From Actinomycetota bacterium (GTDB taxonomy: Bacteria > Actinomycetota > CADDZG01 > WHSQ01), in assembly GCA_030446465.1 (NCBI GenBank), contig JAUJNI010000001.1, forward strand, positions 131,776 through 195,775: 64,000 nt of DNA. The letters are read 5' to 3'. The notes beneath the pieces were generated by a model. It was given only the letters and a program-made list of their open reading frames with translations. It was not told where the DNA came from and ran no database searches. Shown piece by piece: positions 50,469-55,766 of this stretch; positions within the stretch are counted from its first letter, which is position 1; every line of letters begins with the position of its first letter. The position numbers and the translations under genes are program-made.

Positions 50469-54377
<3,909 letters not shown>

Positions 54378-54388
54378 GAGTTGGCACT

Positions 54389-54419
54389 AAAAGGCCCCCG
54401 AGGAGCCGGGGGCCTTTTT
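54389..54419. terminator. rpoBC terminator, probably bidirectional
   Basis: A 12-bp stem, AAAAGGCCCCCG (54389-54400) with CGGGGGCCTTTT (54407-54418), has a 6-nt loop and ends in five Ts. The A-run on the left arm gives a T-run on the opposite strand, so it can also end transcripts of the minus-strand mini-ORF, whose stop codon overlaps it. Confidence 0.9.
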
Positions 54420-54504
54420 ACTTGCGGGCTCGGTTCTTCCGAGCCTCACGCAGCAGATCTCGCTGCCGCTCAACCGCGACAGCCCAAGTCGTGCCGGGAT
54501 GCAT
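54418..54504 (-). CDS. 28-aa small protein, divergent from the ArsR-type regulator
   Basis: ATG 54504 opens a 28-codon frame starting MHPGTTWAVAVERQRD, followed by a basic LLREARKNRARK tail. It has an excellent Shine-Dalgarno (AAAGGAGG, 54519 to 54512) with 7-nt spacing and a near-consensus promoter (54595-54567). Its TAA lies on the edge of the rpoC terminator. The peptide is amphipathic and basic. I recall short MHP...RQxxLLREA peptides in other actinobacteria, but this needs a search. Function is unknown; it may be a signalling or membrane-associated peptide, or a leader. Confidence 0.6.
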   Translation of the reverse strand: MHPGTTWAVAVERQRDLLREARKNRARK

Positions 54505-54537
54505 CAACGTTCCTCCTTTGCTCTCAGGGTGCCGCTC

Positions 54538-54555
54538 GTTCGGTAATTATCGAAC
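54538..54555. promoter_or_regulatory. Operator-like palindrome 1
   Basis: GTTCGGTAATTATCGAAC is an 18-bp near-perfect palindrome with arms GTTCG and CGAAC. It lies just downstream of the predicted mini-ORF transcription start. Its arms match palindrome 2, 23 bp away. Confidence 0.65.
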
Positions 54556-54560
54556 GAGCT

Positions 54561-54578
54561 GTTCTATATATATCGAAC
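54561..54578. promoter_or_regulatory. Operator-like palindrome 2
   Basis: GTTCTATATATATCGAAC is an 18-bp palindrome of the same form. It covers the mini-ORF -10 (TATATA). A lone half-site TATCGAAC recurs at 54650-54657, before the regulator ATG. Confidence 0.65.
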
Positions 54579-54595
54579 ACTCGGCCGCTCGTCAA
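54567..54595 (-). promoter_or_regulatory. Promoter for the mini-ORF
   Basis: On the minus strand, TTGACG (54595-54590), a 17-nt spacer and TATATA (54572-54567). The -10 lies inside operator-like palindrome 2, so a bound regulator would block it. Confidence 0.6.
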
Positions 54596-54668
54596 TATTT
54601 CGGGGGTGCGCGAACTTATTCGACTAGAATCGACCAGGCAGTCGAGCTCTATCGAACGGGGGGCCAGG

Positions 54669-55766
54669 ATGCGGGTGCTCAATCTCGCGGAGCCGGATCA
54701 CCCCCTCGCGCTCGAGGTAGTGCCCTCCATGGCCGCCGAGTTGCTCATGAGCCTCGTGGCCGTCGGCGACACCCTCCACAAGACCAAGGACGCCGACAGC
54801 TATGACTTTGGGAGGGCCCGGCTGCAGGCGCTGAGCGAGAGGCTCGCTTCCGACCTGGTCCCCTCGATCGACCGAGTCACCGCGGGGTACGGCAAGGTCA
54901 CGGCGAACCTGCTCGGCATCGTGTACGACAGCCCCGAGCCACGCGATGTTTCCGCGCTGCTCCGCCGTCTCGAGGACATCGAGCCCCTTGAGCTCCTCCT
55001 CGACCTGCTCGGCTACCACATCGCCGCCCATCGACGGATGACGCCTCCCGATGTCATCCGAAGGGCGGCCGAGGGCGAGGTCGAGGCCCGCGACCGGTTC
55101 CTTCGTGAGTCGTCCCGCAGAGGGGACGACCTCAGCAAGGCACAGGCCGACCTTCTCTCGAACAGTCCCGAAGGAGTCAAGGATTCGCTGATCGAGTTCC
55201 TATGCCGCTGGAATGACGATGTTTTCGCCGAGATCGCGCCGGAGGCGGCCCCTGTCCTCGAACGAGACGCCGCTGCCAAGCGGGCGCTAATCGAGTCGAA
55301 CTCGCCGGAGAGGACCATCGAGCTGGCTACCAACGGAATCCAGTTCAACCGTGACCCTGGGATTGAGCGGGTTGTGCTGTTTCCGACCTACGTCCTTCGC
55401 CCCTGGGTACTGGTGTCGGAGTCCGACGACCTCAAGATCTTTTGCTACCCGGTTGCCGACGACAGCCTGGAGATCGACGAATCGATCCCTCCGCCTCAGC
55501 TCGTGAAGCTCTATAAGGCCCTCGGGGACGTCAACCGTCTGAAGCTCCTCAGGCGCCTAGCGGACGGTCCCATAACGCTGAAAGAGGCGACCCAGCTCCT
55601 CGGAGGCGCCAAGTCAACCGCCTATCATCACCTCGCCATTCTTCGGCAGGCGGGCCTGTTGTGGGCCAGGGACGACGCCGACAAGACCTATACCCTCAGA
55701 GGAGACCTCATCCCTCTGGCCGGCGAGCTGCTCCAGGGCTACCTCGCCCGGGGCCAGGGCGTTTGA
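54669..55766 (+). CDS. ArsR-type winged-helix transcription regulator with long N-terminal domain
   Basis: The 365-aa protein has a C-terminal ArsR-type helix-turn-helix at about residues 275-350 (LVKLYKALGDVNRLKLLRRL, then TLKEATQLLGGAKSTAYHHLAILRQAGLL). A 270-residue N-terminal region of helical character, of the type annotated as DUF5937-like in actinobacteria, could bind a ligand. ATG 54669 has a G-rich upstream sequence; GTG 54606 is an alternative that would add 21 residues. The two 18-bp palindromes upstream are its likely operators. Confidence 0.85.
   Translation: MRVLNLAEPDHPLALEVVPSMAAELLMSLVAVGDTLHKTKDADSYDFGRARLQALSERLASDLVPSIDRVTAGYGKVTANLLGIVYDSPEPRDVSALLRRLEDIEPLELLLDLLGYHIAAHRRMTPPDVIRRAAEGEVEARDRFLRESSRRGDDLSKAQADLLSNSPEGVKDSLIEFLCRWNDDVFAEIAPEAAPVLERDAAAKRALIESNSPERTIELATNGIQFNRDPGIERVVLFPTYVLRPWVLVSESDDLKIFCYPVADDSLEIDESIPPPQLVKLYKALGDVNRLKLLRRLADGPITLKEATQLLGGAKSTAYHHLAILRQAGLLWARDDADKTYTLRGDLIPLAGELLQGYLARGQGV

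Follow-up and report, generated by a model that had tools for sequence, protein, structure and literature searches.

A 28-codon frame on the minus strand, divergent from the gene of a 365-aa ArsR-type regulator, is very probably a real gene, as judged from its sequence and its relatives. We put at roughly 0.68 the probability that this small gene is monocistronic, is repressed by the divergent regulator and released by a ligand, and encodes an intracellular effector or adaptor. According to the proposed model, the regulator would bind four 18-bp palindromes, arranged as two tandem pairs in the intergenic region, and would repress both the small gene, through operators lying over the -10 and the start region, and its own gene. 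The helical N-terminal domain of the regulator would sense a ligand and the protein would then let go of the DNA. The small protein, once made, would probably serve as an intracellular effector or adaptor via its basic helix. The parts of this explanation that the sequence supports are the conservation of the gene, the operator motif and the pairing of the two genes. The features are listed below, with positions counted in the window, that is the whole stretch of 64,000 nucleotides (64 kb) analysed.

50469..54377, plus strand: rpoC, the convergent neighbour, outside the unit (from the ORF list; its C-terminal stretch is 80-90% matched in 12 other family genomes)
54389..54418, no strand: inverted repeat, shared putative terminator for rpoC (plus) and the small gene (minus)
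54418..54504, minus strand: small-protein gene, 28 aa, MHPGTTWAVAVERQRDLLREARKNRARK (from the sequence, HMM rank 1 of 1749 ORFs and a homologue in the same slot of genome G002)
54512..54519, minus strand: Shine-Dalgarno AAAGGAGG, 7 nt 5′ of the ATG (from the sequence)
54538..54555, no strand: operator 1, GTTCGGTAATTATCGAAC, in the predicted 5′ leader or start-site region of the small gene (PWM 23.9 bits, second in the 64 kb)
54561..54578, no strand: operator 2, GTTCTATATATATCGAAC, lying over the -10 of the small gene (PWM 28.1 bits, top score in the 64 kb)
54567..54595, minus strand: candidate promoter of the small gene, TTGACG-17-TATATA, 9/12 match (from the sequence)
54618..54635, no strand: operator-like site 3, ATTCGACTAGAATCGACC, on the regulator side, containing TAGAAT (PWM 14.0 bits, third)
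54640..54657, no strand: operator-like site 4, AGTCGAGCTCTATCGAAC, immediately 5′ of the regulator start (PWM 13.7 bits, fourth)
54669..55766, plus strand: regulator, 365 aa, with a helical N-terminal domain (DUF5937-like, below cut-off) and a C-terminal ArsR-type winged helix

The initial annotation had described this ORF with a Shine-Dalgarno (SD) sequence at 7 nt, an ATG and a terminator, and a base-by-base check agrees (ATG 54504-54502, TAA 54420-54418; the alternative in-frame start is a TTG at 54507). The -35 and -10 elements that it proposed with 17-nt spacing are also present, as TTGACG at 54595-54590 and TATATA at 54572-54567. This candidate promoter can be considered a moderate match, not listed by a strict sigma-70 consensus scan, since its -10 ends in a base other than T. 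On the other side, a 12-bp inverted repeat (54389-54400/54407-54418) reaches into the stop codon of the small gene, which lies head-on with rpoC. Since the small ORF converges on rpoC and both end on this one inverted-repeat terminator, the small gene would be monocistronic. The genes found 3′ of the regulator in the ORF list are rpsL, rpsG and fusA. As for the peptide, presented earlier as basic and amphipathic, the first property holds, with a net charge of +5. The second is not supported: the hydrophobic moment of the window peptide is no higher than that of shuffled sequences (p = 0.55), and the same holds when 12 homologues are considered with it. The operator palindromes overlapping the promoter had been missed.

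Conservation in other lineages excludes a chance origin of the frame. An HMM was built from 18 small divergent ORFs of other families, distant members only and without the window's own family. Among the 1749 ATG/GTG ORFs of 20-150 aa in the window, it ranked the small ORF first, with 13.1 bits (E 0.005), the next one reaching 8.2 bits; addition of the G002 copy to the same HMM brought the score to 19.3 bits. G002 belongs to a sister genus and carries the nearest regulator (54% identity). Its divergent slot encodes a 61-aa homologue (MIPIVSLEIIEERQRDRREQARRERASKAHV...), preceded by the SD GAGAGGAGG, which aligns without gaps with the window peptide (ERQRDLLREARKNRARK against ERQRDRREQARRERASK). 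In the AlphaFold2 model of this homologue, residues 4-32 form a helix (mean pLDDT 70). The profile rank and the G002 homologue thus sustain the initial proposal of a real small gene below gene-calling limits and divergent from an ArsR-type regulator, whose signals were judged unlikely to arise by chance. The ‘RQxDLLREA’ core, which had been likened to that of other actinobacterial short ORFs, does recur in such ORFs in our profile searches. Loss of the frame or of the start codon in relatives had been named as evidence against the gene; the relatives examined favoured it.

Homologous regulators were gathered from whole genomes and a species collection. Nearly every readable regulator of the clade has a divergent small ORF preceded by an SD, and strong SD sites precede most of the homologous small ORFs. 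In the distant Nitriliruptoria-type clade, the divergent ORFs measure 50-80 aa, have a strong SD and share the pattern M...A.A..R.....R.A...R.RR. In a tree of 26 regulators, a single branch found in 98% of bootstrap trees splits the 15 with the small gene from the 11 without it, three of the 15 (L050, L052, L054) being assigned via another copy of that locus or a partial reading. In genome G122 (L058/L071), a divergent ORF with a good SD displays a family-like C-terminus, VARALTVVAGRLDPH, and an aberrant N-terminus; it is possibly a frameshift or a diverged copy. In distant relatives of the regulator (L055, L057, L059 (Bacillota) and L048), an MFS efflux gene lies alongside instead of the small gene. 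This neighbour is Pfam-confirmed for L059 and L048, and the TTCGAnnnnnATCGAA-type operator is kept in all four.

The pair also behaves as a unit at the genomic level. In G002, as here, rpoC lies on one side of it and the str operon on the other (fusA was recognised in L032), and two extra genes are inserted there. In six other family genomes (L246-L250 and L253, each with the two ends on a single contig), the rpsL signature comes 383-659 bp after rpoC, without the pair; the pair was therefore gained or lost as a unit. In another genome, G007 (L255), we observed directly 3′ of rpoC, past its terminator, several clustered TATCGATATA-like palindromes together with TTGACA, which suggests another regulated promoter at this junction.

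The C-terminus of the regulator matches HTH_20 (38.6 bits) and HTH_5 (PF01022; 32.3 bits, above the cut-off of 22). It scores 43.2 bits with the metalloregulator model NF033788, below the cut-off of 55, and its recognition region KEATQLLGGAKSTAYHHL contains no cysteine metal motif. In the AlphaFold2 model (mean pLDDT 87), the long N-terminus is helical and residues 268-365 match ArsR structures with Z about 12 (for 6j05, Z 12.2, rmsd 3.7 A, 91 residues aligned). The N-terminus scores 21.5 bits with DUF5937 (PF19361), below the gathering cut-off of 27.1, and a separate search gave no DUF5937 match in the window's own genome (G000). With the whole regulator as Foldseek query, the matches listed were filled by the winged helix and included no solved structure matching the N-terminal domain. 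A literature search, carried out outside subscription journals, returned nothing on the function of DUF5937.

The operators were located with a PWM trained solely on operator sites from regulators that lack the small gene and scanned over the 64-kb window. Its four top matches all lie in the intergenic region between the small gene and the regulator, the next best anywhere having 9.2 bits. They constitute two tandem pairs: operators 1 and 2, the former a direct copy of the latter, are spaced by 23 bp, and sites 3 and 4 by 22 bp. In most Nitriliruptoria small-gene loci the operator pair on the small-gene side is spaced by 24 bp; the window operators sit one step further downstream. Upstream of regulators without the small gene, the palindrome GTTCGATnnnnATCGAAC mostly stands directly after a promoter of the TTGACA-17-TATAGT type, and an operator directly after the promoter is the classic position for autorepression. 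Because the top four PWM matches fall in this intergenic region, the regulator very probably represses, via the predicted operators, both the small gene and its own gene. Moreover, the 2.76-Mb genome contains TTCGNTnnnnATCGAA at just three places according to a pattern search, this intergenic region being one, and on account of this rarity the regulator looks local. A local repressor of both divergent genes would be the simplest reading of these sites. The small-gene leader also carries a perfect-looking hairpin, which is the operator palindrome itself.

The small protein appears to be part of a wider family. The family module, N-terminal and helical, reads M[HY]P...ELLREAE..R and has matches with E <= 0.001 in 45 of the 396 actinobacterial genomes searched. 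Several true DUF5937 regulators of other families (L118-L120, L127) have an SD-preceded divergent small ORF with the same module, for example MHPILSEARARTIMAERHEEARRYRI... and MHPEHSAMMSRLVMEERHREASAWRLQ.... Profiles including these DUF5937-linked ORFs detected additional copies in sister genera of the window organism. The own genome contains a second copy (L179, G000:C1:395438-395554, MYPLMTQELVQQRLADLYSRAQGERRARQLAPKRSRALRT..., 52 aa, SD AAGGAGG), divergent from an ABATE-CGNR regulator at 236 bp. A recognisable divergent regulator was present within 600 bp at 19 of the 40 family loci read, as a raw count, and these regulators are ABATE-CGNR (8), GntR (7), DJ-1/AraC (2), response regulator (1) and MarR (1). 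The reciprocal test avoids the need for a background rate of regulators in general. Using a profile built without any ABATE-linked member on the short ORFs upstream of 26 ABATE genes, we obtained a divergent match of at least 10 bits at 10 of them and a maximum of 4.5 bits in the same-strand control. A good SD, not used for selection, precedes nearly all of these matches.

For the first profile, all 13 good matches were training members or the same loci, and only the absence of others is informative. The independent tests are the HMM of other lineages applied to the window, the search in sister genera, the search in 396 genomes and the reciprocal ABATE test; the genomes used are mostly metagenome assemblies. 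The N-terminal module match between ArsR-linked Nitriliruptoria proteins and MHP-type proteins is weak, with the window and G002 copies as its main bridge, and as a link between short basic sequences it carries a risk of convergent composition. At the GntR-linked loci L181, L187, L195 and L196, the module is the N-terminus of a protein of ~200 aa, a putative fusion that may offer a clue to function; the GNAT-like remainder of these copies was below threshold (E 0.06-0.13 in two tested) and was dropped as evidence. None of the family small proteins tested matched Pfam or NCBIfam, and tblastn of the consensus peptide against a plasmid collection gave no match, the 33-aa query being weak there. 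Our literature search, again outside subscription journals, found no paper pairing small ORFs with these regulators. The small-protein family is apparently previously undescribed.

This diversity of partners bears on the possibility, to which we give limited credit, that the small protein acts back on its divergent regulator, as a co-repressor, an anti-repressor or, if exported and re-imported, a pheromone, in an Rgg/SHP-like layout. The strict pairing and divergence in the clade, together with a large helical domain of unassigned ligand in the regulator, would agree with such feedback. However, regulators of unrelated fold and sensor domain (ABATE-CGNR, GntR, DJ-1/AraC, MarR) also have this module as partner, and relatives of the regulator without the small gene keep a single operator. 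No hydrophobic stretch or signal sequence is seen in the sequence of the small peptide, lengths in the family go from 28 to >80 aa, and the conserved end is the N-terminus and not a C-terminal pheromone. Since one module accompanies sensors of unrelated folds, and since relatives of the regulator exist without the peptide, a signalling role, in which the regulator's N-terminal domain would sense the peptide, is possible but less likely.

The small size of the window copy could also be taken as a sign of decay, the family being real and this member a remnant having lost its C-terminal half and its function, which we find doubtful. At 28 aa it is the shortest of the ArsR-linked clade, where G002 has 61 aa and homologues run to over 80 aa with a conserved N-terminus, and it is devoid of the C-terminal second segment (R..LG..L...G.RL or R..AR.L...A.RLDP). 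This segment is common in the family but not strictly defining and is also missing in some short copies, such as the 33-aa L223, which has a good SD and lies beside an ABATE gene. Moreover, the expression signals, operators and N-terminal module of the window copy are intact and its stop abuts the terminator.

That the transcript works as a regulatory leader or small RNA, the peptide being incidental, is very improbable in spite of the very short ORF and the hairpin in the leader. The co-transcribed downstream gene expected of an attenuation leader peptide is absent, since no gene follows before the terminator shared with rpoC. The amino acids are conserved across genera, as are the SD and the start, and dN/dS over the first 32 codons of three close Nitriliruptoria pairs is 0.50, 0.25 and 0.19, with frame and length kept. 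Finally, a chance ORF with chance signals, conceivable among so many short ORFs in high-GC DNA (1749 in the window), is to a large degree refuted by the leave-out HMM test and can hardly be reconciled with the G002 homologue in the same slot, the matches in sister genera and in the 396 genomes, and the reciprocal ABATE test.

Beyond the repressed and ligand-released small gene that we favour here, we tentatively suggest, at somewhat less than even odds, a more general arrangement. In Actinomycetota, one basic helical miniprotein of ~30 residues could be the output wired to many unrelated one-component sensors (ArsR with a helical domain, ABATE-CGNR, GntR, DJ-1/AraC, MarR), each repressing its own divergent copy, with one common molecular target for the module; the window pair would be one such unit. 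If many sensor families converge on the same module, actinobacterial stress physiology would have a common control point in the target of this module.

The regulator resembles the HTH regulators with DUF5937 (PF19361) of Streptomyces and others by a weak whole-domain similarity of the N-terminus (the 21.5 bits mentioned above), but those genes have a different operator, with no TTCGATnnnnATCGAA site upstream of the ones read. The ABATE/CGNR (DUF1470) proteins are likewise one-component regulators that contain a domain of unassigned ligand and, in 10 of the 26 genes tested, lie divergent from a small protein with this module, whereas their DNA-binding and sensor folds are unrelated. In the passages searched, the ABATE/CGNR structure report on Jann_2411 does not mention a small partner protein (PMC2954205). 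In Rgg/SHP systems, a short gene is divergent from its regulator, as in the window, and SHPs are hydrophobic exported pheromones (PMC13361665, PMC5167397). In contrast, peptides of the window type are basic, have no hydrophobic stretch and are paired with many regulator types.

With ArsR/SmtB local repressors, the window regulator shares the C-terminal winged helix, palindromic operators overlapping the promoter and an autorepression layout. It differs from them by an extra helical N-terminal domain of ~265 aa and by the recognition region KEATQLL without a cysteine metal motif. Local repressors usually target pumps or enzymes. The predicted target here is a 28-aa protein, not a transporter or a detoxifying enzyme, and the only target common across the lineages, often missed by gene callers, is a protein measuring from 28 to about 80 residues.
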